Shown: positions 65 to 11,501 of the stretch, one piece after another
Position numbering within the stretch: position 1 is the stretch's first letter
Layout: each line of letters opens with the position of its first letter
Assembly: GCA_937967805.1 (NCBI GenBank)
Contig: CALBTC010000007.1
Coordinates: 1 to 11,713 of the forward strand
Direction: 5' to 3'
Source of the DNA: an uncultured Anaerolineaceae bacterium
GTDB taxonomy: Bacteria > Chloroflexota > Anaerolineae > Promineifilales > Promineifilaceae
DNA length: 11,713 bases
The notes under the pieces: generated by a model
What the model saw: the letters and a program-made list of their open reading frames with translations, nothing else
What the model was told of the DNA's origin: nothing
The model's database searches: none
Program-made: the position numbers and the translations under genes

Positions 65-924
65 AGGACAGTTGGCAGATTCAAGCAACCAGTTTCACAC
101 CAAAAGTGCAGCAATGGCTGCGGCAACCAACGGCCGTTTCCCTCCTGCACCTATTCGACCATGCCATCAATCTAATTGACACCAACGGCACCATCATCTC
201 TATCGTACAGATCAGCATTGGCGCGGGTCCATTTTCCATTGTGGTGGATGCGGAACGGCCGTTTCCCGCCACCATCCATCCCCCAACCAACATGCACAAA
301 ACGGCCGACGAGCTGACCATCGGTTCGCTGCATATTGATTTGCGTCGGGCACGGTTGTGGCAGCCCGCACCAAATTGGGCTTTATTGCGTCAACAGCAAA
401 AAGTTTGGTTAACCATTTTGCCGGAACTGGAAACGGCCGTGTCCCAGCACCAAGATCGCCTCACAAAAGGCGGTCCGGCCCACTTTGCCCCCACATTTCA
501 TGCCGCCACCAACGAGCTGTGTGCCGCCATCGCCCAGCCGAATGCGACGGGGCTGGAAACGACCGTCTCCCAACTGGCCGGCCTCGGCCCCGGCCTCACC
601 CCCGCAGGTGATGACTTTTTGCTGGGAGTGCTGCTGGGTTTGTGGGCGATACGGCCAGAGGTAGAGGTAGTTGAACTGGCAAAACGGGTGATGGAAACGG
701 CCGTGCCCCGCACCACCCAGCTCTCGGCCGCCTGGCTGCAAGCCGCCGCCCAGGGCGAAGCGTGGCTCGCCTGGCACAACCTGCTGGACGCGCTGCTGGC
801 AGGCAGCAACTGGCAAGTTCCATTCAATCGCATTCTAAACAATGGTGCCACTTCCGGCATCGCCTCTCTGCTAGGCTTCATCGCTTCTATCGGGACCGGC
901 AATCACCAAATTACCTGTTATTGA
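61..924 (+). CDS. DUF2877 / AllH-family protein
   Basis: This 287-residue protein belongs to the DUF2877 family. Its mark is the glycine-rich motif GLGPGLTPAGDDFLLG at residues 174-189, followed near the C terminus by GATSGIASLLGF (262-273). Length fits the family (roughly 270-300). In Escherichia coli the family member YlbF was renamed AllH and, with AllF (FdrA) and AllG, forms the oxamate carbamoyltransferase of anaerobic allantoin breakdown; that is family knowledge. Whether this copy has that activity is open, because no FdrA or AllG partner lies in the window. The protein has no signal peptide or clear membrane helix and should be cytosolic. The ATG probably overlaps the stop of an upstream gene by four bases, so it may end an operon that starts outside the window, where partners should be sought. 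The gene carries four ACGGCCGT palindromes. Confidence 0.85.
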   Translation: MKDSWQIQATSFTPKVQQWLRQPTAVSLLHLFDHAINLIDTNGTIISIVQISIGAGPFSIVVDAERPFPATIHPPTNMHKTADELTIGSLHIDLRRARLWQPAPNWALLRQQQKVWLTILPELETAVSQHQDRLTKGGPAHFAPTFHAATNELCAAIAQPNATGLETTVSQLAGLGPGLTPAGDDFLLGVLLGLWAIRPEVEVVELAKRVMETAVPRTTQLSAAWLQAAAQGEAWLAWHNLLDALLAGSNWQVPFNRILNNGATSGIASLLGFIASIGTGNHQITCY

Positions 925-983
925 AATATTGCATCAATTCAGGTATGTTTTGAACACGAAAATAGTTCGAAAACGCGACTCAT

Positions 984-1012
984 CTCAGCGCCTCCGCGCC
1001 TCTGCGTTAAAT
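984..1012 (+). repeat. CTCAGCGCCTCCGCGCCTCTGCG-type intergenic repeat (half element)
   Basis: This C/T-rich stretch (CTCAGCGCCTCCGCG, then CCTCTGCGTTAAAT) has the look of the short intergenic 'CCTCTGCG' sequences seen in many bacterial genomes. It occupies most of the gap between the DUF2877 and translin genes and ends just before the Shine-Dalgarno site. The right arm of the repeat at 9773-9831 is similar and also sits directly before a start codon. An ATG at 929 would extend the translin frame across this repeat, but the translated repeat looks non-coding. Confidence 0.5.
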
Positions 1013-1033
1013 TTCATTTGTAAGGAGCATTTA

Positions 1034-1663
1034 GTGGACCAACTAGACAGTACCGCCGACCAGATACGTGCCGAGTTTGAACAAGTGAACACCGCGCGCG
1101 ACCAGGCATACCAGCGTTCGCGCCAGCTCATCAGCCTGTGCGCCCGGGCCATTCGTGCCGTTCACCGCGAAGAGTGGCACAAGGCCGAAACGCTCATTGC
1201 TGAAGCGCGGGAAGCTACCGAAACGCTGGTAGACGGCGTGCGCGATCACCCAAATTTGTACCACGCTGGCTACACGCAGGATGCCGTCAAGGAGTTTGTC
1301 GAGGCCAATCTCACCTATGCCCTGATTCGCGACCGCCCCCTGCCCACGCCGGAGGAGCTAGGCACGGAAGGCAACACCTGGCTCAATGGGCTAGCCGAAG
1401 CGGCCACCGAGCTGCGCCGCCGCATTCTGGACATCATTCGGCACGGCCACAGCGACGAGGCCGAACGACTGCTGGACGTGATGGACCAGATTTACAGCCA
1501 GCTCGTCACCTTCGACTTCAACGACAGCATCACCGGCGGGCTGCGCCGCCGCACGGACACCGTGCGCGCCGTCCTGGAGCGCACGCGGGGCGACGTCACT
1601 AACAGCTTGCGGCAAGCACAGTTGGAAGAGGCGCTGGAAGCATTGGAAGCTCGTTTAAAATAG
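1034..1663 (+). CDS. Translin-family protein (COG2178-like nucleic-acid-binding protein)
   Basis: The product, 209 residues, is an all-helical protein of the translin/TRAX family, which binds single-stranded RNA and DNA and in eukaryotes forms the C3PO RNase. Family signatures are visible along the chain: EFVEA at 87-91, WLNGLAEAATELRRR at 116-130, DVMDQIYSQLVTFDF at 148-162, and LRRRTDTVRAVLERTRGD at 170-187. E87 and E90 in EFVEA fall where TRAX has acidic residues described as catalytic, so RNase activity is conceivable; that alignment is from memory. The start chosen is GTG at 1034, because AAGGAG at 1022-1027 lies six bases upstream and the in-frame ATG at 929 would translate an intergenic repeat. 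There is no signal peptide. The gene stands alone and faces the next gene convergently. It has no ACGGCCGT site, unlike both neighbours. Confidence 0.88.
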   Translation: MDQLDSTADQIRAEFEQVNTARDQAYQRSRQLISLCARAIRAVHREEWHKAETLIAEAREATETLVDGVRDHPNLYHAGYTQDAVKEFVEANLTYALIRDRPLPTPEELGTEGNTWLNGLAEAATELRRRILDIIRHGHSDEAERLLDVMDQIYSQLVTFDFNDSITGGLRRRTDTVRAVLERTRGDVTNSLRQAQLEEALEALEARLK

Positions 1664-1699
1664 GAGATTGGAGATTTTATCGAACGAATCTCCAATCTC
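1664..1699. terminator. Inverted repeat between convergent genes, candidate bidirectional terminator
   Basis: GAGATTGGAGAT (1664-1675) pairs perfectly with ATCTCCAATCTC (1688-1699) around a 12-base loop. The left arm begins right after the translin stop codon and the right arm ends on the stop codon of the opposing membrane-protein gene. A further AATCTCC copy follows at 1701-1707. On the minus strand the stem is followed by CTATTTTA, a weak T-run; on the plus strand no T-run follows. It may therefore act as a terminator mainly for the minus-strand gene, or simply be one of the local intergenic repeats. Confidence 0.5.
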
Positions 1700-2115
1700 T
1701 AATCTCCAGTCTCCTTCATTCCAGCCCAAATCAGCCCCAAGCCCATCCCGACCAGCAGCCCAACGGCCGTCCACAAAGGCAGGATGTTCCATACCCAGGC
1801 AATCTCCGCCTGGCTGAACTCCGGACCGTGGGCGTGCAGCCCGGTTTTCACCGCCATGAAAAGGAGAGAAAGCAGACCGCTGCCTCCACCTAAGATTAAG
1901 CCGGAAACGGCCGTCACCACCACCCCTATCTCTCGTCCCACTGTTTTGCCCCCCAGCCAGCGCTGCCAACCGTATCCCACCAGCAAAATCGTCGTCGTTG
2001 TGCCCATCGTCGCCACCTGCCACAATGCACCTTCACGGCTGATCCAGACGGCCGTATAAACCACCCACATCGCCAGCAGCAAGCGCCATCCAGGAATTTT
2101 TTGGGGAAACTGCAT
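1699..2115 (-). CDS. Small four-helix membrane protein, unknown function
   Basis: I do not recognise the family of this 138-residue protein. It is strongly hydrophobic, with probable membrane helices at about 9-25, 36-54, 62-90 and 105-132. Short polar links include SREGA (26-30) and a His-containing loop, LHAHGPEF (93-100). Glycines cluster in helix three (LILGGGSGLL, 73-82) and helix four (GLLVGMGLGLIWAG). There is no enzyme motif. It is read toward the translin gene and away from the flavoprotein gene. A candidate promoter, TTGACC-17-TTTAAG, ends 10 bases before the ATG, giving a leader of only a few bases; AAGGG lies within the same stretch as a weak ribosome site. Three ACGGCCGT sites read in frame as TAV support this as the coding strand. 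Confidence 0.75.
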   Translation of the reverse strand: MQFPQKIPGWRLLLAMWVVYTAVWISREGALWQVATMGTTTTILLVGYGWQRWLGGKTVGREIGVVVTAVSGLILGGGSGLLSLLFMAVKTGLHAHGPEFSQAEIAWVWNILPLWTAVGLLVGMGLGLIWAGMKETGD

Positions 2116-2125
2116 ATTAGGAACC

Positions 2126-2154
2126 CTTAAACATCAAAAGCGGACTACGGTCAA
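2126..2154 (-). promoter_or_regulatory. Candidate promoter for the membrane-protein gene
   Basis: On the minus strand, TTGACC (2154-2149) and TTTAAG (2131-2126) are separated by 17 bases and match the sigma-70-type consensus in 5 and 4 of 6 positions. The ATG follows 10 bases after the -10 box, so the transcript would have a leader of only about three or four bases. In the other direction, no good promoter was found in 2155-2301 for the flavoprotein gene; TATCAT at 2171-2176 is possible but lacks a -35 box. Confidence 0.45.
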
Positions 2155-2301
2155 CTAAAGCAAAATGGGGTATCATTTCCATGGTCAGGCAGATTTTAGC
2201 ATGACTCAACCCGTTTCTTGTAAATCATCAAAACGATTGGCAGCATTGGCCACAACCACGCCGGTTTGCGCTGCCATCAAGAACCCTTTAGGAGGTACTA
2301 A

Positions 2302-2853
2302 ATGGCAAAAGTAATTGTTGTAGGTGACGGTCCGGGTGGGCTAAGCTGCGCCCTGTTTTTAGCCAAAAACGAGATGGACGTGACCGTGTTTGGTCAAGAT
2401 GATACGGCAATGCACTATGCCAAACTGTATAACTATCTGGGTATTCCAGAAATTTTGGGCAGTGACTTCCAGGAAATTGCCCGGAAGCAGGTCACCGATT
2501 TTGGTGCAGACCTGCAGGACGCTTTGGTCACCGAGGTCAACAAAACGGACGATGGCTTTAGCGTCACGCTGGAAGATGGCTCCAGCCACGAAGCCAAATA
2601 TGTCGTTTTGGCCGAGGGCAAGGGGGTGAAATTAAACCAAAGTTTGGGGCTGACAAAAGAAGGTCGCAGTGTAGAAGTGGATCGGAATGGGCGTACGGCC
2701 GTTGACAGCCTCTACGCCGTCGGCCGCAGCACCAAAATGAACCGCAGCCAGGCTATTATTTCCGCCGGAGAAGGCGCCGCCGCCGCGTTGGACATCCTCT
2801 CCACCGAAGCCGGCCGCGACGTGCTCGACTACGATACACCTCCAAAAGAGTGA
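2302..2853 (+). CDS. Short thioredoxin-reductase-like FAD protein, no NADPH domain
   Basis: This 183-residue protein looks like a thioredoxin reductase reduced to its FAD-binding fold. It opens with VIVVGDGPGGLSCALFLAKN (residues 4-23), a dinucleotide-binding motif. NYLGIPEILGSDF (44-56) recalls the thioredoxin-reductase segment around 'NYPGFPE'. The C-terminal part, VDRNGRTAVDSLYAVGRS (126-143) followed by QAIISAGEGAAAALDIL, matches the final FAD-contacting segment. Full enzymes have about 310 residues; the NADPH domain normally in the middle is missing, as is the CxxC redox pair (only one Cys, C16). The usual ATG of strand four reads AEG, the final GD reads GR, and the acid expected after strand two is absent (VTVFGQ). 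It may still bind FAD and be reduced by a partner, or be a non-redox descendant. GGAGG at 2291-2295, six bases upstream, fixes the start. The frame is intact from this site to the stop, which argues against recent decay. Confidence 0.8.
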   Translation: MAKVIVVGDGPGGLSCALFLAKNEMDVTVFGQDDTAMHYAKLYNYLGIPEILGSDFQEIARKQVTDFGADLQDALVTEVNKTDDGFSVTLEDGSSHEAKYVVLAEGKGVKLNQSLGLTKEGRSVEVDRNGRTAVDSLYAVGRSTKMNRSQAIISAGEGAAAALDILSTEAGRDVLDYDTPPKE

Positions 2854-2860
2854 TCAATGA

Positions 2861-2928
2861 GCCAGTTTTCAGTAGGTCAGTGTTTGGTGAGTAACTGATT
2901 ACGGACCTACTGATTACCGATTACTGGC
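2861..2928. repeat. Nested inverted repeat between convergent genes
   Basis: CAGTAGGTC (2870-2878) pairs with GACCTACTG (2904-2912), and the outer GCCAGT (2861-2866) pairs with ACTGGC (2923-2928). The space between contains repeats of the form ACTGATTAC. The element fills almost all of the gap between the flavoprotein stop (2853) and the DUF4230 stop (2930, minus strand). It could work as a bidirectional terminator, but no T-run follows on either strand, so repeat is the safer label. Confidence 0.55.
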
Positions 2929-2929
2929 A

Positions 2930-3655
2930 TCATGGTTGTGGCGTCGGTGTGACCAAAATGTATCCTTTGGGGACTTCCTGTTCGTAAGGTTCTACAGTTG
3001 GGGGAACCTCGTCTGTAAAGATTACCGTTTCAAAACCCAGTCCCTGCATAAACGTCAGCATGAATTCCTGGGCATTGTAGTTGGCCCGGTCTAGCAGTTC
3101 TGTAGACATGGCTTCCTCGCGCAGCGCAGCTTCGGCTTCCTGGCGCACCAGCGTTTCCAGCTGCGGATCGACGCTGGCAAACAAGCCTGTATCCCGGTCC
3201 AGCACGCGCGAAGTTGGATTATTCAGCAAAGCCAAATCACGAAAAAGGATTGCTTCCGGCAAGTGAACCATCACTGTTGTTGAATCCACGACCTGGATAT
3301 CGGCTGGCGTCATGTTAGAAAAATCCACGCCGGCTACGGCCAACCCGTGGGCCTCAAAGATAAGGGTTTCGCCCATGACACCCCACAGCACATCGTTGTT
3401 CCGCTCAGCAATCACGTTTTTCTCCAGCTCCATTGAAGCCGTCTCTAGTCGGGCCAAATCATTGATCTGGCGCACGATTGTTGTGGAACTGGGTACAACC
3501 TCCGCTGTAGCCGGAATGACCAACTGCTGCACAAAGTCACCGATTGGCTGGGCCACGGTACCGGCCTTGTTAACCGTGGCGACAAAGGTGTAAGCGGCCA
3601 GTGCCCCCATCACAAAAAAGACAATTAAAAATAGGTAAGCTAATTTTCTTAGCAT
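2930..3655 (-). CDS. Membrane-anchored DUF4230 protein
   Basis: The product has 241 residues. One N-terminal hydrophobic segment (about 5-24, LAYLFLIVFFVMGALAAYTF) should anchor it, with the rest outside the cytoplasm. Residues about 58-215 match DUF4230: INDLARLETASMELEK (64-79), a GETLIFEAHGLAVAGVDFS core (95-113), and VHLPEAILF (130-138). The family has no firm biochemical role. The tail (216-241) is rich in Pro, Glu and Thr and probably flexible. The start is taken as ATG at 3655, because GGAG lies nine bases upstream; a TTG six codons earlier has no ribosome site. A perfect hairpin sits directly upstream of that GGAG and may affect translation. The gene faces the flavoprotein convergently and diverges from ylxP. 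It has no ACGGCCGT site. Confidence 0.85.
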   Translation of the reverse strand: MLRKLAYLFLIVFFVMGALAAYTFVATVNKAGTVAQPIGDFVQQLVIPATAEVVPSSTTIVRQINDLARLETASMELEKNVIAERNNDVLWGVMGETLIFEAHGLAVAGVDFSNMTPADIQVVDSTTVMVHLPEAILFRDLALLNNPTSRVLDRDTGLFASVDPQLETLVRQEAEAALREEAMSTELLDRANYNAQEFMLTFMQGLGFETVIFTDEVPPTVEPYEQEVPKGYILVTPTPQP

Positions 3656-3669
3656 CTTGTTCTGCTCCG

Positions 3670-3698
3670 GCAAAACTCAATTTTGCGGCGAGTTTTGC
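3670..3698 (-). promoter_or_regulatory. Hairpin in the 5' leader of the DUF4230 gene
   Basis: On the minus strand, GCAAAACTC (3698-3690) and GAGTTTTGC (3678-3670) form a perfect 9-bp stem with an 11-base loop. The stem ends one base before the GGAG ribosome site (3668-3665), so folding could change access to it. No riboswitch family is recognised. The remaining divergent region, 3699-3887, shows nothing else I can name. Confidence 0.45.
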
Positions 3699-3887
3699 AT
3701 AAATCACACTTCTTCGACACCACAGTTACCGTAGCGTCACCTGCCGGATTACCAAATTTTGACGAAATAGGCCTGTTTTGGGCCAGTTTGTTGCGAATCA
3801 GTAATAAAAACGTTAGATCAGCTTGTATAGTTGCACCTATTGGTACTTTTGGATGAATACTCTCATATTGCAAAATCACCCGCGTGC

Positions 3888-3916
3888 TTGACTTGCCCCA
3901 CCCCTTTCTCCACAAT
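3888..3916 (+). promoter_or_regulatory. Candidate promoter of ylxP, leaderless arrangement
   Basis: TTGACT (3888-3893) and CACAAT (3911-3916) are 17 bases apart and match the -35 and -10 consensus in 5 and 4 of 6 positions. The ATG begins at 3924, seven bases after the -10 box, where transcription would be expected to begin. No Shine-Dalgarno sequence is present, which fits a leaderless mRNA. Confidence 0.5.
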
Positions 3917-3923
3917 ACGCCTC

Positions 3924-4211
3924 ATGATTATTGCCTCTTGTATCATAACATTGCAATTGGATGAAGTTTTTTCTCTAAAAGAGAAGCGCCGTATTTTGAA
4001 ATCAATCCTAAAGCGGCTGCCGCAGAAGTTTAACCTGGCCGTGGCTGAAGTAGATCATCATGATGTGTGGGGAACGGCCGTTATCGGCCTGGTCACAGTA
4101 GGCAACGACGCCGCCCGCCTGCACAGCCAGCTGCAAAAAGCGGTCACCTGGCTGGAACAGCAGCGCCCGGACGTGCCCATTGCCGATTATGAAATTGAAA
4201 TTCTAGCGTAA
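3924..4211 (+). CDS. ylxP: DUF503 family protein YlxP
   Basis: This 95-residue protein is a full-length DUF503/YlxP member, a family of about 90-100 residues. The family signature is clear: SLKEKRRILKSILKRL at 17-32, then FNLAVAEVDHHDVWGTAVIG at 36-55. In many bacteria ylxP lies beside infB, rbfA or nusA and is linked to ribosome or RNA function, but its biochemical role is not settled. Here it is alone, with no translation genes nearby. The start at 3924 gives the family length; an upstream in-frame start at 3831 would add 31 residues unlike the family. One ACGGCCGT site reads in frame as TAV. Confidence 0.92.
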   Translation: MIIASCIITLQLDEVFSLKEKRRILKSILKRLPQKFNLAVAEVDHHDVWGTAVIGLVTVGNDAARLHSQLQKAVTWLEQQRPDVPIADYEIEILA

Positions 4212-4340
4212 GACCCTAAAGGTTTGGACTTCTACTTTTTGCACAATTCAGTGGCAAAACCCTTGGAGTCTGGTCCCTGAAGCAGATTAACAAAAGGTAA
4301 CCCGCACAGGAACCGTCATGTGTTCATGGGGCTCGTTCGG

Positions 4341-4346
4341 TATAAT
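4341..4346 (+). promoter_or_regulatory. TATAAT -10 box before the 827-residue gene
   Basis: A perfect TATAAT lies seven bases before ATG 4354, the same spacing as the -10-like box before ylxP. No good -35 hexamer is seen at the normal distance (4317-4324). The rest of the gap after ylxP (4212-4340) shows no convincing terminator; ACCCTAAAGGTTT at 4213-4225 resembles one half of an inverted repeat whose partner is missing. Confidence 0.5.
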
Positions 4347-4353
4347 CCGCCGC

Positions 4354-6837
4354 ATGGAACAATTGGCAACGGTAAAACGTATACAAACCATGTCCAACAA
4401 CAAAACCCGTAAAATCCAACTTTTCGGCCTGCTCTGCCTGCTTTTGCCCCTGATGGCTTTCCTCGCTGCACCTGCCGCTGCCCAAGACGATAGCAACGGC
4501 ATCACGATTGATATGACCGTGGGCTACGACAGCCAATACAAGAGCGAATTTTGGGTGCCTGTGCAGGTAACGGTGGCTAACAGTGGCCCGCCCGTTGAAG
4601 GCTATGTGGAAATTCTGGTCCCAACAAACAGCAGCCAGGACCCCGGTACGTTTCGCAGCCCAATCAGCCTGCCCACCCAATCGAACAAGCGCGTGACGCT
4701 TTATGTCAAGTTATCGCCCGGCTCCGGTGACGTGGAACTACAGTTACGGCAAAACGACGGCACCCTGGTGGCCGAAGCCAGCAGTGGCAGCATCAACCGC
4801 GTCAACCGCAACAGCCTGCTTTATGGCGTGGTTAGTCCAGAAGGCGGCGAATTCACCTTCTTGGAACGCATCAATGGCACCCAGGCCGATGCGGCCGTCG
4901 CCCTGCTCACGCTGGACGATTTGCCGGAAACGGCCGTTGCCTGGAACGCCCTCGACATCTTAATTCTCAATGACACCGACACCAGCCAGCTTACCGGCAG
5001 CCAGCGGACGGCGCTGGAATCGTGGGTGAACAACGGCGGGCAGCTCATCGTTACCGGCGGGGCAAACTGGCAAAAAACGGCCGTTGCCTTAACCGACCTG
5101 CTGCCCGTAACCATTGACGGCAGCCAATCCGTAGACGATCTGCCCGGTCTGCGCGAGCGTATCGGCATTCCGTTTCGCGATCCAGGGCCATACGTGGTAG
5201 CCACCAGCACCCTGCGCAACGGGGAACTCATCTTCCGCCAGGACGATTTGCCGCTGCTGGCCCGCCAATCGGTCGGGCGCGGCTCTGTTTACTTCTTGGC
5301 GCTGGATCCGCGGCTGGCTCCCCTGCTGGATTGGGACGGCAGCGAAGCGGTTTGGGCGTCGATTGCCAGTCGGGTGCCCAACACAAACAATTGGGGCTTG
5401 GGGCCACAAAACAGCTATGCGGCGACGACGGCCGTTTCCAGCCTCCCGTCTTTAACTCTGCCCAGCATCTTACAGCTCATTGGCTTTTTGCTGGTTTACA
5501 CCATCGTCGTGGGACCACTCAACTATTGGGTGCTCAAGCGGCGCGACCAGCTAGAGCGTGCCTGGATCACCATTCCGGTGCTGGTGCTGATCTTCAGCGG
5601 CGTCACCTACTTCACCGGCTTCCAACTGCGCGGCAACGACACCATCATCAATCAGATTTCCGTCGCCTACAGCCAATCAGGTGGGGAACAGGCAGACGTG
5701 TACAGTCTGCTTGGCCTCTACTCGCCACAGCGCCGGACCTACCACATAAATCTGCCCCAGGGCGCACTGGCCCGACCTTACCAGGAAAATTTCGGCGCCC
5801 CCTTCAATACAAACGAAGCCGATATTGGCTCGATCACCTATGGTAATGACGTGACTATCTCTAATGTACGCGCCGATATTGGCGAGGTGGTGGTCTTCCT
5901 GGCGCAGAGCAACCAGCCCGCTGTGGATGTCTCCGGCACGGCGACGCTGACGCTGGAGGGCAACAATCTGGCCCTGGAGCTGGATTTGCTCAACAACAGC
6001 GACATTACGCTGGAGACGGTCTCCGTGCTGCTGGGCCATTCGGCCGTTTTTGTGGGTGATTTGTTGCCCAATGAGCGAACGGCCGTTTCCCAAACCATCC
6101 GTTCTTCTGGCAGTAGCAGCACGGTCGGCTCGCCCTTTGGCGGCTTTAACTCTGGTGCCCCATTGTCAGCCAATGCTGAAACCATCCTCGATTCATTCGA
6201 TTTCTACAACAACCGGGAGCTTTTTCCCCGTTGGCAGCTGCTGCAATCATTAGAAAGTAGCAATTTTGGCGGTGCTGGCACCTTTACCCTGCCGCCGGAA
6301 TCTGTGGTGCTCATCGCCTGGTCCAGCGAGCAGCAGCTAGACGCCAGCCTGGCCGACGCCGATTTTGAAGCCCTCAACACCACCATGTACCTGATTGAGA
6401 TTCCGCTGGAGCAAAATATTGTAAGCGGCCGTAACATCACCATCCCCATCTCGCTGCTCAACTGGGAACCGTTGGCCAACAACAATGTTTACAATCCCAC
6501 CATTCAGGATTTGTACCTGAACGGCGGTTGGGTGGAATTTTCCTACACCCCCTGGCCCGAGTTCCAGCTAATGGAAGTGACCGAACTGGGCTTCTCTTTG
6601 ACCCAGCAGTTTGAAGACCCGGCCCAACTGCTGCCCGAGGTGCGGATTTGGGACTTCGAGCAAGGCCTCTGGCAGCCTGTCGGCGATCCGGTTTGGGGCT
6701 TAAACACCATTGCCGAATTTGCCCCCTACGTCGGCCCCAACAACGAGGTGCGACTGCGACTGCAAGACAACAACAGTCAGTTTGGCCTGGGCATTGGCGA
6801 ATTTTACCCGGTGCTTACCGGCAATCTTAATGAATAG
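4354..6837 (+). CDS. Large secreted, membrane-anchored protein of the ABC export cluster
   Basis: I do not know a named family for this 827-residue protein, but its layout is clear. A signal peptide ends in APAAAQ at about residues 39-44. An extracytoplasmic beta-rich part follows (TVGYDSQYKSEFWVPVQVTV, 55-74). Then comes a Rossmann or glutamine-amidotransferase-like segment at about 200-240, with ALDILILNDT and LESWVNNGGQLIVTGG, but without an evident catalytic Cys triad. Two membrane helices at about 372-393 and 404-423 flank a short basic loop (LKRRDQLER), and a long beta-rich C-terminal part lies outside. A similar pair of helices with 'VVGPLNYWVLKRRD' occurs, from memory, in proteins encoded beside ABC-2 exporters. 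The start is uncertain: ATG 4354 follows a TATAAT box by seven bases; ATG 4390 would give a more usual signal peptide. Neither has a ribosome site; ATG 4318 lies upstream of the box. The ABC ATPase gene follows on the same strand after 123 bases. Confidence 0.82.
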   Translation: MEQLATVKRIQTMSNNKTRKIQLFGLLCLLLPLMAFLAAPAAAQDDSNGITIDMTVGYDSQYKSEFWVPVQVTVANSGPPVEGYVEILVPTNSSQDPGTFRSPISLPTQSNKRVTLYVKLSPGSGDVELQLRQNDGTLVAEASSGSINRVNRNSLLYGVVSPEGGEFTFLERINGTQADAAVALLTLDDLPETAVAWNALDILILNDTDTSQLTGSQRTALESWVNNGGQLIVTGGANWQKTAVALTDLLPVTIDGSQSVDDLPGLRERIGIPFRDPGPYVVATSTLRNGELIFRQDDLPLLARQSVGRGSVYFLALDPRLAPLLDWDGSEAVWASIASRVPNTNNWGLGPQNSYAATTAVSSLPSLTLPSILQLIGFLLVYTIVVGPLNYWVLKRRDQLERAWITIPVLVLIFSGVTYFTGFQLRGNDTIINQISVAYSQSGGEQADVYSLLGLYSPQRRTYHINLPQGALARPYQENFGAPFNTNEADIGSITYGNDVTISNVRADIGEVVVFLAQSNQPAVDVSGTATLTLEGNNLALELDLLNNSDITLETVSVLLGHSAVFVGDLLPNERTAVSQTIRSSGSSSTVGSPFGGFNSGAPLSANAETILDSFDFYNNRELFPRWQLLQSLESSNFGGAGTFTLPPESVVLIAWSSEQQLDASLADADFEALNTTMYLIEIPLEQNIVSGRNITIPISLLNWEPLANNNVYNPTIQDLYLNGGWVEFSYTPWPEFQLMEVTELGFSLTQQFEDPAQLLPEVRIWDFEQGLWQPVGDPVWGLNTIAEFAPYVGPNNEVRLRLQDNNSQFGLGIGEFYPVLTGNLNE

Positions 6838-6852
6838 ATTGAATTATCCAAC

Positions 6853-6941
6853 TGTCATTCCCGCGATGGCGGGAATCCACTGCGGTAACAAATGGATGCC
6901 TGCCGGAGTTTATCCCCGCGAAGGCGGGGGCAGGCATGACA
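6853..6941. repeat. 89-bp palindromic repeat with TGTCAT/ATGACA ends
   Basis: The element runs from TGTCAT to ATGACA and contains two hairpins. The first is ATTCCCGC / GCGGGAAT (6857-6864 and 6869-6876) with a four-base loop. The second has an outer 9-bp stem, ATGCCTGCC (6896-6904) with GGCAGGCAT (6929-6937), around an inner CCCCGC / GCGGGG (6914-6919 and 6924-6929). It strongly resembles the 'TGTCATTCCCGCGA' intergenic repeats found in many bacteria, which behave like small non-autonomous mobile or REP-like elements. It lies between the secreted-protein and ATPase genes and ends 19 bases before the ATPase start. Confidence 0.8.
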
Positions 6942-6960
6942 ATGCAAACGAGTTAGATTT

Positions 6961-7914
6961 ATGTCAGCAATCATCGAAATACAAGGCCTAACCAAAAAAT
7001 ATGGCGATCTGACCGCCCTTAATGATCTCACGCTCAACATTGATGAAGGCGAGGTTTTTGGCTTCATTGGCCCCAACGGCGCAGGCAAGACCACCACCAT
7101 GCGCATTCTCACCACGCTGCTCAAGCCCACCAGCGGCAAAGCGTGGGTGGCCGGCGAATCGGTCATCGACAACCCACGGGCCGTGCGGCGTAACATCGGC
7201 TACATGCCGGACTTCTTTGGCGTGTACGACGATATGAAAGTGTGGGAATATCTCGACTTTTTTGCCGCCTGCTATGACATTCCCCCCGCCACCCGCCTGG
7301 GCATGATCGATGATCTGCTGGCGCTGGTGGATTTGGGTCATAAAAAGGATGCCTTCGTAGATAGCCTGAGCCGCGGCATGAAGCAGCGGCTCTGCCTGGC
7401 GCGCACGCTGGCCCACGATCCGCAGGTGCTCATTTTGGACGAGCCGGCCAGCGGCCTGGACCCGCGTGCCCGCATCGAGATGCGCGAACTGCTGCGCGAG
7501 CTGAAGCTGATGGGCAAGACCATTTTCTTCTCGTCGCACATTTTGTCTGAAGTAGCGGACATTTGCACCAGCATCGCCATTTTAGAGGCGGGCAGCCTAG
7601 TTGCCTACGGCGACATGAGCGAAATGAAGCGCCAACTGCGGGCTCATCGCCTCATCCAGATTCGCGTGCTGGGCGAACTGCTGCCGCTACAGGAATTTTT
7701 GCTGCGGCACGAGGCGGTCGAAAGCATCATCACCTCCGAGGAGGTCGATATCCCATCGGACGCCCTCCGCTTTGATTTCACCGGCGACGACGAAAGCTTG
7801 AGCGGCTTGCTGGCCAGCCTGATTGCCAACAACTTCCGCGTGGTTGCCTTTCAGGAAGAAACGGGTGATCTGGAAGATGTCTTTTTGCAGGTAACCAAAG
7901 GGATTGTGAACTGA
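6961..7914 (+). CDS. ABC-2-type exporter, ATP-binding protein
   Basis: This 317-residue cytosolic ATPase energises the two permeases encoded next to it. All main motifs are present: Walker A GPNGAGKT at 37-44, signature LSRGM at 136-140, Walker B VLILDEPAS at 156-164 with catalytic E161, D-loop SGLDP at 164-168 and the switch histidine H193 in FFSSHIL. The Q-loop position reads GYMPDFFGVYDDM, with Asp (D84) where Gln is classical. Residues 230-317 form the extra C-terminal domain common in CcmA/NatA-like ATPases. The ATG at 6961 gives a standard N terminus (IEIQGLTKKYGDLTAL), but no clear Shine-Dalgarno is seen; the upstream gap is mostly a palindromic repeat. The permease start lies one base after this stop, so the two genes should be coupled. 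No ACGGCCGT site occurs in the gene. Confidence 0.95.
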   Translation: MSAIIEIQGLTKKYGDLTALNDLTLNIDEGEVFGFIGPNGAGKTTTMRILTTLLKPTSGKAWVAGESVIDNPRAVRRNIGYMPDFFGVYDDMKVWEYLDFFAACYDIPPATRLGMIDDLLALVDLGHKKDAFVDSLSRGMKQRLCLARTLAHDPQVLILDEPASGLDPRARIEMRELLRELKLMGKTIFFSSHILSEVADICTSIAILEAGSLVAYGDMSEMKRQLRAHRLIQIRVLGELLPLQEFLLRHEAVESIITSEEVDIPSDALRFDFTGDDESLSGLLASLIANNFRVVAFQEETGDLEDVFLQVTKGIVN

Positions 7915-7915
7915 G

Positions 7916-8764
7916 GTGATCTCCCTGGCACGGCTGCGGCATGGTTGGCGCTGGGTTCGTTCACTGAATGAGAACCCCATTTACCTACGCGAAAAAGGCA
8001 GTTGGGGCAATCCAAATCCATTTTATGAGACGCTGCGCCGCTATTCGCCCTTTGTGGTGATGGGGGCCATTTTATTGGGCCTTTGCGCGGGCACCAATCC
8101 GGCCCTTTTGGGCGCCACAGAAGATGATGAGCTGTTTGCTTTTTTGTGCGTGCTTTGTTTGCCCGGCGCGCTGCTGTCTATGTTAACAATTTATGGCTCG
8201 TTTATGGCGCCGGCTTTAACAGCACCAACCATCAGCATGGAGATGGATCGGGGTACCTGGGATATTTTGCGCCTGACGCCCCATTCCACTGCGTCGATTT
8301 TGCTGGCCAAGCTGTTTGGCGGATTGTCCCGCCTGCCCATCTGGCGGGTGATGGCCATTTTGAGCGTCTTCCAGGCGTTGATGCTGTTTTGCGTGCTGAG
8401 TTTTGCGGCGGGCGTCACGGCGACTTCGGCTTCGCTCAGTGCGGGTGTTGCCGGTTTTTTCATAGGGCTGGGGGCATTGATACGGCCGTGGGTTGAAGTG
8501 CTGTTTGCCGCTTTTACCGGCATGTATTTGTCCACCTGGGTACGCTCAGCGCGATATGCGCTGGCGGGCAGCTACACCATCGTGGTACTGATGAAAGTTT
8601 TTAGCAACAGCGGCATCTGGCTGGGCATCTGGAGCCTGCTGGGCGTCAATGACAGCGGCCTGTTAACCGGCAGCATTTTATCACCGGCGATTGTGTATGG
8701 AACGGCCGTGATCTTCCTCTGGTGGGGCATTGTGCGGCAGGCCAACAAACTGAGCATCACTTGA
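7916..8764 (+). CDS. ABC-2-type permease, first subunit
   Basis: This 282-residue protein is a membrane subunit of the exporter. Hydrophobic helices are visible at about 45-65, 75-100, 143-168, 173-190, 192-208, 218-230 and 255-273. The stretch ISMEMDRGTWDILRLTPHSTASILLAKL (107-134, here written in its key parts: E109, D111, R112, T114, L118, TP at 121-122, K132) is the cytoplasmic motif typical of ABC-2 permeases that contacts the ATPase. The start is GTG at 7916, one base after the ATPase stop; AAAGGG lies about 13 bases upstream, rather far, so translation probably depends on coupling. The N terminus (PIYLREKGSW, 21-30) is charged and cytosolic. Its sequence differs clearly from the second permease, so the exporter is probably a heterodimer. 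Confidence 0.85.
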   Translation: MISLARLRHGWRWVRSLNENPIYLREKGSWGNPNPFYETLRRYSPFVVMGAILLGLCAGTNPALLGATEDDELFAFLCVLCLPGALLSMLTIYGSFMAPALTAPTISMEMDRGTWDILRLTPHSTASILLAKLFGGLSRLPIWRVMAILSVFQALMLFCVLSFAAGVTATSASLSAGVAGFFIGLGALIRPWVEVLFAAFTGMYLSTWVRSARYALAGSYTIVVLMKVFSNSGIWLGIWSLLGVNDSGLLTGSILSPAIVYGTAVIFLWWGIVRQANKLSIT

Positions 8765-8792
8765 GTAATTACCCAGTTACCCAATTACTCAA
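8761..8792. repeat. Inverted and direct AATTAC repeat over a stop codon
   Basis: TTGAGTAATT (8761-8770) and AATTACTCAA (8783-8792) form a perfect 10-bp stem with a 12-base loop; the first arm includes the stop codon of permease one. The stretch also contains four tandem units of the form (A)(A/G)TTAC(C/T)C. No T-run follows, and the next gene starts 23 bases downstream, so a strong terminator is unlikely. Confidence 0.6.
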
Positions 8793-8814
8793 TTACAATC
8801 AATTCAGAGGCATT

Positions 8815-9768
8815 ATGACTGAACTTGTACCAGAATCACCCATCAAAAAGAAAAGCTTCTGGCAGCGACTGCGGGAAAATCCGGTAACGGTAAAGGAGCT
8901 GCGCAGCCGAATGCGTGGGCGGCGCGCTTTTGTCGTGCTCACCATTCACCTGGTGGTGATGAGCGCCTTCATCACCCTGGTTTATTCCGCCTTTGCTTCG
9001 TCTGCCAGCGGGCCTTTTGGGCCGGATTCCCGCGATGTAGGCAAGGTCATCTTTAGCTCGGTGCTGGGCTTGCAGGTGATGCTGGTCATTTTTGTCGGGC
9101 CATCGTTTACCGCCGGAGCCATCAGCGGTGAAAAAGAGCGGCAAACGTATGATCTGCTGCGCACCACGCTGCTGTCGGCCAGATCGTTTGTGGCGGGCAA
9201 GCTGGTTTCTGCCTTGAGCTACGTGCTGCTGCTGATCTTTGCCGCCATCCCGCTGCAATCGATTGCCTTTTTGATGGGCGGTGTCGCTTTTATCGAACTG
9301 TTTTTATCCCAGGTGATTGTGTTAGTGGGGGCCGTTGTTTTTGCTTTGTGGGGTTTGTATTCTTCGGCACGGATGCGCACCACCCTGTCTTCCAGCGTCG
9401 TTACCTTTGCCGGCTCGCTGTTTGTCACCGTGGGCATTCCCGTCATTGTGGGACTGTTTGCCATGATTTTAAGTCCATTTTTTGCCGGCGCAGCCATCCT
9501 CAGCTGGCAGGTAGAAGCAGCTCTCATGTACGTGCTGATGTTTCTGGCCTCAACCAATCTGCCGGCCACGCTCATTGTCAGCGATGTGGTGCTGGTGGAA
9601 GAGGGCTCGCTCTGGTATTTTAGCAGTGTCGTCGGCGGCGCTTCGGGAACCAGCCACACAATCTGGCTCTTTTCGCCCTGGCCGCTCTTTTTGATTTTGT
9701 ACAGCCTGCTGGCAATTATCCTCTTCTGGGCCACCGTGCGCCGGGTGCGGAAGATAGCCACGCAGTGA
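8815..9768 (+). CDS. ABC-2-type permease, second subunit
   Basis: This 317-residue membrane protein has the ABC-2 permease hallmark ISGEKERQTYDLLRTTLLS at residues 103-121, the cytoplasmic segment after helix two. Membrane helices are visible at about 38-60, 82-102, 133-152, 158-182, 196-222, 232-258 and 290-308. The N terminus reads NPVTVKELRSRMRGRRAF (22-39), typical of subunits that keep a basic cytosolic tail before helix one. ATG 8815 is chosen because AGAGG at 8806-8810 precedes it by four bases; the frame could be extended to a start at 8722, but that would translate the AATTAC repeat and overlap permease one. It should pair with permease one and the ATPase. No ACGGCCGT site is present, whereas permease one has two. 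Confidence 0.9.
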   Translation: MTELVPESPIKKKSFWQRLRENPVTVKELRSRMRGRRAFVVLTIHLVVMSAFITLVYSAFASSASGPFGPDSRDVGKVIFSSVLGLQVMLVIFVGPSFTAGAISGEKERQTYDLLRTTLLSARSFVAGKLVSALSYVLLLIFAAIPLQSIAFLMGGVAFIELFLSQVIVLVGAVVFALWGLYSSARMRTTLSSSVVTFAGSLFVTVGIPVIVGLFAMILSPFFAGAAILSWQVEAALMYVLMFLASTNLPATLIVSDVVLVEEGSLWYFSSVVGGASGTSHTIWLFSPWPLFLILYSLLAIILFWATVRRVRKIATQ

Positions 9769-9772
9769 ATTA

Positions 9773-9831
9773 GCCACAGAGGGCACAGAGAATTTAGAGA
9801 GCTTCTCTTTTGCCTCTCTGCTCTCTGTGGC
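9773..9831. repeat. CCACAGAG / CTCTGTGG inverted repeat
   Basis: The left arm (9773-9792, beginning GCCACAGAG) and the right arm (9812-9831, ending CTCTGTGGC) match as reverse complements in about 16 of 20 positions around a 19-base space. This resembles the 'CCACAGAGG...CTCTGTGG' intergenic repeats seen in several phyla. It starts four bases after the permease stop and ends 11 bases before the next ATG, taking the place where a ribosome site would be expected. Confidence 0.7.
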
Positions 9832-9842
9832 GAAAAATTTTG

Positions 9843-11501
9843 ATGAACGAACGATTTGAGGAATTGAAGCAGCAGTTAAAGCGGTGGAACGGCCGTCGCC
9901 GGCTGCGTGATGGCTTGTTGTGGCTGCCGCGCGGCCTGCTGCTTGGCCTGCTGCTGGGTGTCGTCGTGGCCACTATCGCCCGCTTCCGTCCGCTGCTGAC
10001 GAATGCGGAAGTCGGCTACGTGGCCGGCGGCCTGGGGCTGCTGGGGCTGCTGCTGGCGGTGATTATTTTGCTGGCACGCCGTTTTGATTTGCTGCAGCAG
10101 GCGCGCTTTGCCGACCGGCAGTTTTTGCTGAAAGAACGGGCCAGTACGGCCGTTGAAATCCACACCCACCAACTGGAAGCGACGCCAACTTTTGCCGATT
10201 TGCAGCTGAACGATACGTTAACGGCCGTGCAGCGCGTAGACACCAAAGCGATGCTGCCTTTCAAAATAAATCGGCAGGATTGGCTGGTTGTTTTGTTGGC
10301 GATTGTGTTGTTGGGAACGGCCGTTCTCCTGCCCAATGCCCAAGAAGCCGAACTCCTCAAAAGCCGCGCCATCCAGGAAAGCATCGAAGAGCAGGTGGAG
10401 GCGCTGGAAGCGCTGGAAGAAGAAATCATCCAGAATCCCGAACTGACCGACGAGCAGGAAGAAGAGCTTTTGGAGCCGATTCAAAGCGCTTTGGAAGGAC
10501 TCCAAGAAGGCAGCCTGAGCCAGGAAGAGGCCGTGGCTACCCTATCCGAAGCAGAAGCGGACCTGCGTGAACTGGCGGCGGCCAACGACCAATCCAACCT
10601 GCAGCAATCGCTGCAAGACGCCGGGCAGCCGCTGGCGCAAAACCAGAACAGCCAGTCGCTGGGACAAAATTTGCAAAGCGGTAATTTGTCCCAGGCGGGC
10701 GCGGCTGCGGCGCAGTTGGCGGATAGCTTACCAACCTTGTCTGATGAAGAGTTGGCAGAACTGGCAGAAGATTTGGCGGAAACGGCCGCATCCCTGCAGG
10801 ATGTCGATAGCGAATTAGCCGCAGAGCTCGCTGCCGCTGCTGAAGCCCTGCAAAACGGCAATGTCGCTGCGGCACAGCAGGCGCTCCAGCAAGCCGCCGG
10901 TACCCTTCAGCAGCGCGCCCAAAGCAGCGCCGCCGCCGGGCAGGCCAATGCCGCCGCCAATCAGTTGGGTGAAGGACGGCAGGAAGTAGCCCAGGCAGGC
11001 CAGGGTAATCAATCTGGCCAGGGTGAGCAGGCCGAAGGCAGCGGCCAGGGTCAAGGACAAGGCGAGGGTGAAGGTCAGGGTCAAGGGCAAGGCAGCGGTC
11101 AGGGTTCGGGACAGGGGCAAGGCTCCGGTTCCGGGCAGGGTAATGGCCAGGGACAGGGTTCCGGGCAAGGTGGCCAAGAGGGTGGTCAGGGCGGCGGCAT
11201 CGGTGGGCCAGGACCAGGCGGCGGTCACACCGAGAATGTCTTCGTGCCTGATTTTGTCGATTTGAGCGAGTTTGAAGGTGAAGACATTGAACTGCCCGCT
11301 GAATGTGTTGCCGATCCGGCCTCTTGCGGCGGACTGTTGAGCGAAAACCCCACCGAGTTTGGTGATGAGCAAAGCATCGTCCCCTACGAGCAGGTCTTTG
11401 GCGACTACCGCAACGCCGCCAACGAAGCCCTCGCCGACGACTACATCCCGCTCGGCCTTAAAGGATACATTCGCGACTACTTTTCATCCCTCGAACCGTA
11501 G
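9843..11501 (+). CDS. Membrane protein with coiled-coil region, Gly/Gln tract and C-terminal domain
   Basis: This 552-residue protein is of unknown function. Three membrane helices are likely at about 25-47, 57-78 and 146-164, after a basic N terminus (RWNGRRRLRDG). A long, acidic, Glu/Leu/Ala-rich region (170-380) should be helical and coiled-coil-like. Residues 387-460 are a low-complexity Gly/Gln/Ser tract. A compact C-terminal domain follows (462-552), with Cys488 and Cys495 and the end VPYEQVFGDYRNAANEAL...YIPLGLKGYIRDYFSSLEP. The layout recalls DUF4175-type proteins, and the C terminus recalls, from memory, proteins encoded near MoxR/DUF58 genes; neither link is proven. ATG 9843 is chosen since the alternative at 9810 lies within an intergenic repeat; no ribosome site is seen. 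It shares strand with the exporter and follows it after 74 bases. Four ACGGCCGT sites lie in its first 500 bases. Confidence 0.8.
   Translation: MNERFEELKQQLKRWNGRRRLRDGLLWLPRGLLLGLLLGVVVATIARFRPLLTNAEVGYVAGGLGLLGLLLAVIILLARRFDLLQQARFADRQFLLKERASTAVEIHTHQLEATPTFADLQLNDTLTAVQRVDTKAMLPFKINRQDWLVVLLAIVLLGTAVLLPNAQEAELLKSRAIQESIEEQVEALEALEEEIIQNPELTDEQEEELLEPIQSALEGLQEGSLSQEEAVATLSEAEADLRELAAANDQSNLQQSLQDAGQPLAQNQNSQSLGQNLQSGNLSQAGAAAAQLADSLPTLSDEELAELAEDLAETAASLQDVDSELAAELAAAAEALQNGNVAAAQQALQQAAGTLQQRAQSSAAAGQANAAANQLGEGRQEVAQAGQGNQSGQGEQAEGSGQGQGQGEGEGQGQGQGSGQGSGQGQGSGSGQGNGQGQGSGQGGQEGGQGGGIGGPGPGGGHTENVFVPDFVDLSEFEGEDIELPAECVADPASCGGLLSENPTEFGDEQSIVPYEQVFGDYRNAANEALADDYIPLGLKGYIRDYFSSLEP
11001..11222 (+). 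repeat. In-frame Gly/Gln hexanucleotide tract
   Basis: Irregular tandem 6-base units of the form GG(N)CA(A/G) encode Gly-Gln pairs, broken by Gly-Ser and Gly-Glu pairs, over about 74 residues. Third codon positions vary between units, so this is an old, selected protein repeat rather than a recent slippage run. It is probably a flexible linker between the coiled-coil part and the C-terminal domain. Confidence 0.85.

Follow-up and report, generated by a model that had tools for sequence, protein, structure and literature searches.

The DNA examined here, a stretch of 11,713 bases from an uncultured Anaerolineaceae bacterium that we call the window, carries a series of genes strewn with one palindromic octamer, ACGGCCGT. 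An exact count gives 19 copies, running from the site at 130-137 to that at 10317-10324, in agreement with a sequence-only reading that had counted the same number by eye between positions 130 and 10324. All 19 lie inside open reading frames (ORFs), where 16 encode Thr-Ala-Val (TAV), two encode x-Arg-Pro-x and one encodes Asn-Gly-Arg (NGR). Conversely, with the ORFs of the window defined by a longest-ORF rule, every one of their 16 Thr-Ala-Val tripeptides is spelled ACG GCC GTN. In the AllH-like ORF at 61-924, the sites (given throughout without strand) encode TAV at 130-137, 433-440 and 697-704 and ERPF, in phase 2, at 255-262. TAV is also encoded at 1763-1770, 1907-1914 and 2048-2055 within a minus-strand ORF (1699-2115), at 2695-2702 in a Pyr_redox_2 ORF (2302-2853), at 4074-4081 in a DUF503 ORF (3831-4211) and at 4930-4937, 5077-5084, 5428-5435 and 6079-6086 in a DUF7408 ORF (4318-6837). 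The region from 6961 to 9768 encodes an ABC transporter ATPase, an ABC-2 permease (ABC2_membrane_2, 7916-8764) and a protein with no Pfam match (8722-9768 when taken as the longest possible ORF), where the last two ORFs share a 43-base overlap; the permease ORF has sites at 8482-8489 (IRPW, phase 2) and 8702-8709 (TAV). The remaining sites fall in the ORF at 9810-11501, where 9889-9896 encodes NGR (phase 1) and 10146-10153, 10221-10228 and 10317-10324 encode TAV.

Two hundred dinucleotide shuffles of the window contained a mean of 0.18 copies (maximum 2), and a second-order Markov model predicted 0.38; the sequence-only reading had put the random expectation at about 0.18. Every other palindromic 8-mer in the window occurs at most twice. 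The source genome is represented by these 11.7 kb only, and genome-wide figures therefore come from relatives. The ORF at 929-1660, which encodes 244 amino acids with no Pfam match, matched 21 loci, of which 20 are titled as Chloroflexota or subgroups of this phylum. Four loci (L001-L004) are colinear with the window, with the same gene order and 74-87% nucleotide identity over the greater part of the window or, where the contig is shorter, of the contig. A gene of genome G002 has two close homologs that bear the name Candidatus Leptofilum, which NCBI places in the Promineifilaceae. The syntenic relatives are Promineifilaceae-like Chloroflexota, and the window itself probably belongs to the same family, as judged from these relatives.

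Genomes with more than 400 copies of ACGGCCGT per Mb, calculated with rounded listed genome sizes, are referred to as motif-rich. Across the 21 genomes behind the loci, 12 have densities of approximately 1,000-1,700/Mb and G008 has 437/Mb, while G014-G017 have approximately 90-180/Mb and G018-G021 fewer than 50/Mb. The family of G002 provided 52 genomes, 30 of which exceed 400/Mb (maximum approximately 2,100/Mb) and 28 of which exceed 500/Mb, with G170 and G008 at 420-440/Mb. A class-wide sample of 298 genomes contained ten above 400/Mb, all within this family, and a phylum-wide sample of 301 genomes contained only G002 itself; no genome sampled outside the family in either set passed this density. 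The sequence-only reading had named two outcomes that would refute it, and neither was seen in the relatives: ACGGCCGT is far above a reversed-pattern control (11,512 versus 99 in G002, with a low control across the motif-rich genomes of the family), and no other palindromic 8-mer approaches it in motif-rich sequence.

Samples of 200-400 kb from each of four motif-rich genomes (G002, G004, G012 and G251) were analysed alongside a motif-poor genome, G087. Of the 8-mers present 40 times or more, ACGGCCGT is the most over-represented in all four, with an excess of 25-26-fold over a third-order model and approximately 64-80-fold over a motif-masked second-order model, whereas 200 kb of G087 contained 23 copies against 13.4 expected. 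Together, the shuffles, Markov models and 8-mer ranking rule out chance or base composition as the source of the motif. Near-misses that differ in the outer base exceed expectation 5.7-fold for T and 2.8-fold for G, with C at 0.9-fold (2.1, 2.0 and 1.0, respectively, in G087), while near-misses within the core occur at 0.4-1.7 times expectation. The values for position 4 are 1.69, 0.77 and 0.73, and the most depleted variants are those at position 2 (0.40 and 0.46). Sites are denser within ORFs (1.5-2.0/kb) than between them (0.8-1.4/kb), and gaps of fewer than 50 bases are under-represented, at 0.40-0.84 of what random spacing would give.

The octamer contains CGGCCG, a known type II restriction target, so it could in principle be the footprint of a restriction-modification system whose cognate methylase protects the site. 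Such targets are normally avoided, as is GGGCCC in these genomes, yet no palindromic 6-mer is more enriched than CGGCCG in any of the four motif-rich samples, and we consider a restriction-modification origin very unlikely. Strong avoidance is seen for several other 6-mer palindromes: GGGCCC is avoided in the five sampled genomes (0.02-0.13 of expectation; 0.04-0.13 in the four motif-rich ones) and GGATCC is avoided in three of the four motif-rich genomes (0.04-0.25), as with restriction avoidance.

The strength of the bias is clearest within coding sequence, where an opportunity was defined as an in-frame place whose amino acids permit the palindrome (ORFs were again called by the longest-ORF rule, with no gene finder). 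For phases 0, 1 and 2, respectively, ACGGCCGT fills 328 of 342, 176 of 200 and 95 of 128 opportunities in G002, where codon usage alone predicts 45.8, 9.7 and 1.9. The equivalent figures are 162/179, 105/127 and 36/67 in G012, 189/193, 122/141 and 41/55 in G251, and 139/152, 82/97 and 48/71 in G004. The fill thus ranges from 54 to 98% of synonymous opportunities over the four genomes, and the implied log-odds shift is 3.8-5.6 (12 estimates). Strictly defined intergenic DNA (65.6 kb pooled) contains 62 sites against 0.66 expected (ln 4.5). The shifts in motif-poor G087 are 1.7, -0.3 and 1.8, from 26, 91 and 58 places, the 26 being Thr-Ala-Val. The bias is present in all three codon phases and in intergenic DNA at similar strength (log-odds shift of approximately 4-5.5), which points to a pressure on the DNA itself and not on mRNA or protein. 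Thr-Ala-Val is also the most over-used tripeptide in all four motif-rich genomes (3.7-4.1-fold, among tripeptides with at least 40 copies), and protein sequence is therefore affected too.

The presence of Thr-Ala-Val at 16 of the 19 window sites could instead suggest that ACGGCCGT is a by-product of codon, amino-acid or base-composition bias. Against this, the enrichment extends to every phase and to intergenic DNA, and ACG GCC is used in 90-98% of Thr-Ala-Val tripeptides in the four motif-rich genomes versus 0-10% of Thr-Ala-Leu tripeptides. The synonymous-place counts and this contrast rule out codon or amino-acid bias, and we give this reading, base composition included, practically no chance of accounting for the motif.

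Sites are also retained between relatives, far more so than the DNA around them. Conservation was assessed at gap-free BLAST-aligned sites against GC-matched control 8-mers, an approach in which BLAST favours conserved stretches. The window sites are kept at 17/19 in L001, 15/15 in L002, 7/9 in L003 and 15/16 in L004 (controls 41%, 26%, 19% and 24%), and in the reverse direction, from relative to window, at 17/17, 15/18, 7/12 and 15/20. Comparison of G002 with G004 gave 58/72 and 58/76 (controls 24%) and of G002 with G001 gave 29/35 and 29/29 (controls 31%). At 69-71% identity, window sites are still kept at 7/9 in L006, 5/7 in L010 and 3/6 in L007 (controls 8%); neither of the two sites compared between G002 and G012 was kept.

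This conservation, along with a log-odds shift that changes little from one context to another, fits additive selection with a scaled strength of approximately 5. The octamer could therefore be selected directly as a binding site for a nucleoid, segregation or repair protein, with no methylation involved and with a small fitness gain per site. That no methyltransferase was found to track ACGGCCGT (see below) also favours this explanation. On the other hand, site number follows coding opportunity rather than even spacing, with a gap coefficient of variation of 2.4 in G004, which carries an island that lacks the motif, and of 0.9-1.0 in each of the other three genomes. Five selected virus-classed contigs that average 3.3 sites/kb, described below, also count against it, and direct selection appears doubtful.

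The G004 island (G004:C90:103166-128945; L152 and L153) is a 25.8 kb stretch with a GC content of 0.47 and no copy of ACGGCCGT, and is the longest site gap in the 200 kb sampled. Its genes encode TniB, TniQ, a Mu-type transposase, a C5-cytosine methylase, an Mrr/ResIII-type nuclease/helicase and an HATPase protein. The stretch resembles a Tn7-like element with defence genes as its cargo, which we infer to be a recent arrival. A transposon-bearing stretch with no sites is also what might be seen if motif-bearing DNA were preferentially taken up and recombined, as with DNA uptake sequences (DUS) and uptake signal sequences (USS), which occur at about one site per kb across a genome. A density of approximately 1-2 copies/kb, the enrichment of outer near-misses and the conservation of sites are all compatible with such a drive. 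Known uptake signals are directional and not palindromic, whereas ACGGCCGT is an exact palindrome, and an uptake drive is therefore unlikely.

The motif is also found in virus-classed sequence. A scan of IMG/VR for two copies of ACGGCCGT within 34 bases, which favours dense contigs by design, identified at least 120 stretches, of which 96 (at least 4 kb) were scored. Among the matches listed, the median ratio of observed to expected sites was 5.6, and five exceeded 50. Five selected virus-classed stretches, two of them from one contig, have a mean of 3.3 sites/kb. L343, L305 and L288, with approximately 3-3.7 sites/kb, are denser than chromosomes, and the matches in these three annotated stretches include ParA, ParB, FtsK-like, PAPS reductase, helicase-loader and replication genes. 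Given the ParA/ParB, FtsK-like and replication genes, the dense stretches may be plasmids or phages of motif-rich hosts.

The sequence-only reading had compared the octamer with HIP1 (GCGATCGC), the highly iterated palindrome (HIP) of cyanobacteria, and this comparison holds. A HIP-type sequence is characterised in Elhai (2015) as a palindromic 8-mer that is grossly over-represented genome-wide, at approximately 500-2,500/Mb, with deviations at the outer bases, a bias against deviation at positions 4 and 5, alternate palindromes in relatives and a matching methyltransferase. According to an unpublished statement carried in PMC3497702, very few bacterial genomes have octamers as frequent as HIP1. 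ACGGCCGT is a GC-rich octamer palindrome with a genome-wide density of approximately 400-2,100/Mb, and 28 of the 52 family genomes are within the range given for HIP-type sequences. Its one-off deviations are commonest at the first or last base, and relatives that lack it (G315, G200 and G321) carry alternate palindromes. HIP1 itself is described as occurring at hundreds to approximately 2,000/Mb, with near-misses commonest at positions 1 and 8 and with alternate palindromes in some relatives (PMC4390886). The differences are that the core is CGATCG in HIP1 and CGGCCG in ACGGCCGT, that HIP1 belongs to cyanobacteria and ACGGCCGT to Chloroflexota, and that no matching methyltransferase is established for ACGGCCGT. 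In addition, its central two positions are not specially protected (ACGaCCGT is at 1.7 times expectation), so the bias against deviation at positions 4 and 5 is not seen in our ratios, Elhai's own measure not having been recomputed. It is therefore not HIP1 itself, but a different octamer in Chloroflexota relatives. The sequence-only reading knew of no description of ACGGCCGT in this role. The open-licence literature searched likewise yielded no account of it as a repeated motif in Chloroflexota, and the sole paper there containing the word concerns data encryption.

ACGGCCGT is a HIP-type system in another phylum than the cyanobacteria. To our knowledge, HIP1 has lacked a functional explanation for decades. 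For ACGGCCGT, the reading that we favour, with a probability of roughly 0.5, is a highly iterated palindrome of one Chloroflexota family whose likeliest cause is an orphan methyltransferase together with repair or selection. A symmetric DNA-binding protein, most likely an orphan DNA methyltransferase, would recognise CGGCCG and the outer pair. Near-matches would then be converted to full sites, and existing ones kept from being lost, either by mismatch repair that depends on methylation or by selection that favours methylated sites. The Dcm/Vsr system of very short patch repair illustrates how a repair bias can enrich a methylated motif. Another parallel is GGm4CC methylation (M.Ssp6803II, DmtB and M.CbeI), as GGCC sits within the core of ACGGCCGT, and the absence of M.Ssp6803II has been associated with altered replication and repair (PMC6560206, PMC3425538). 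These enzymes differ in having a four-base specificity.

The sequence-only reading had guessed that a methyltransferase protects the site, but the four methyltransferase families searched were either patchy or common to motif-rich and motif-poor genomes alike. PF00145 was rejected as a common factor because it is present in only 8 of 21 genomes and 6 of 13 motif-rich ones, with no match in G002 despite its 11,512 sites. The other three families were rejected as well. D12 (PF02086) is present in 27 of 31 genomes, but the members tested from the two largest clusters (one per cluster, the second cluster being tied at four members) are EcoDam- or DpnM-like and so resemble Dam/DpnM GATC enzymes; another four-member cluster comprises G011, G251, G270 and G296. 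PF01555 is present in 29 of 31 genomes, where the clearest orthologous group (approximately 320-330 residues; G004, G009, G010, G013, G251 and G270) includes motif-poor G014. PF02384 is present in 25 of 26 genomes and is missing in motif-rich G186. In G002, the enzymes found are a Dam-like D12 protein, the products of PF02384 genes and a protein of 690 residues that matches PF01555 and is distantly similar to DUF1156 antiphage proteins. This DUF1156-like protein is the best methyltransferase candidate for ACGGCCGT, but as a lead only. Strong matches (E <1e-80) are present in 40 of the 52 family genomes, and 58 of the 298 class genomes match at E<=1e-20; G321 and G018 have no strong match. Its unannotated neighbours share no gene family in more than 4 of 14 genomes, which also argues against a restriction-modification system.

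Several results weigh against a methyltransferase-based cause. None of the methyltransferases searched tracks the presence of ACGGCCGT, and the DUF1156-like candidate has strong matches in 26 of 30 motif-rich versus 14 of 22 other family genomes, a difference short of significance (Fisher p=0.094). G196 has the candidate (62% identity) yet only 84 sites in 4.3 Mb, while motif-rich G152, G170, G296 and G328 have no strong match, and phylogenetically independent pairs were uninformative (n=3). The predicted fold of the candidate has no PDB match at E<=0.001; its nearest folds are RNA and DNA methyltransferase domains, which are silent on specificity, and given this weak match DNA is not certain to be its target. 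Vsr endonuclease, considered as the repair enzyme, was rejected, as it is found in only 8 of 52 family genomes and 6 of 30 motif-rich ones. The GmeC rule published in PMC4390886 is not enough on its own to account for an outer base of A, T or G. Finally, the incompleteness of metagenome-assembled genomes (MAGs) blurs every presence/absence count.

Within the family, three relatives carry another palindrome in place of ACGGCCGT. G315 has TCGGCCGA (57 copies over 44.7 kb, plus 27 over another 20 kb) and G200 has GCGGCCGC (62 copies over 36.6 kb, plus 29 over another 20 kb), while G321 (L169-L173) has TGCCGGCA, with 43 in 44.5 kb and 3,665 genome-wide. The G321 palindrome first surfaced in the reversed-pattern control column. 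Two of these relatives thus retain the CGGCCG core with a different outer base pair and the third has a wholly different palindrome. By phase, each fills its own synonymous places at 55/58, 18/40 and 8/17 (TCGGCCGA in G315), 45/48, 22/28 and 16/21 (GCGGCCGC in G200) and 4/4, 17/31 and 21/44 (TGCCGGCA in G321). Alternate cyanobacterial HIPs (TCGATCGA, GGGATCCC and GGCGCC) likewise reflect an outer-base or whole-motif change in single lineages (PMC4390886), whereas here three other palindromes occur in one family, two with the CGGCCG core. No comparable replacement was seen in samples of G018, G318, G087, G014, G015 and G017 (9-200 kb). A CGGCCG excess of 3.3-8.1-fold with no single dominant outer pair was observed in 16-27 kb each of G222, G333 (L186-L188) and, outside the family, G241 (L246 and L247), and may represent an early or a relaxed stage.

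A quick rpoB tree covering 30 genomes (28 from the family), in which 7 of 27 inner branches are open, placed G200 as the first branch within the family, followed by G317/G318, both of which lack ACGGCCGT. G315 is sister to the ACGGCCGT genome G170, and the position of G321 is weakly supported. Motif-poor G018 adjoins motif-rich G005 and G009, so its state looks like a loss on this tree. These patterns can be read as a switchable palindrome drive, in which a site-specific DNA system converts permitted near-matches, its outer-base specificity shifts between lineages and the genome is then rewritten. Sites in rpoB and in the methylase gene showed no more than hints of in-place switching, and we hold this more specific model tentatively. 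If true, thousands of sites and some protein sequence would have been rewritten by a HIP system outside cyanobacteria, with a specificity change that could be matched to a gene.

ACGGCCGT represents an independent HIP-type case with a different core and in a different phylum, where motif-rich, motif-poor and differently marked genomes within one family provide a natural experiment for the responsible gene. The log-odds shift of approximately 4-5.5 per site, similar in size between coding and intergenic DNA, is the figure that any mechanism must explain. If the reading of ACGGCCGT as the iterated palindrome of this family is true, the motif separates resident from newly acquired DNA and could help to assign MAGs, plasmids and phages to the family, while the alternate palindromes in relatives may help to show the function of such sequences.

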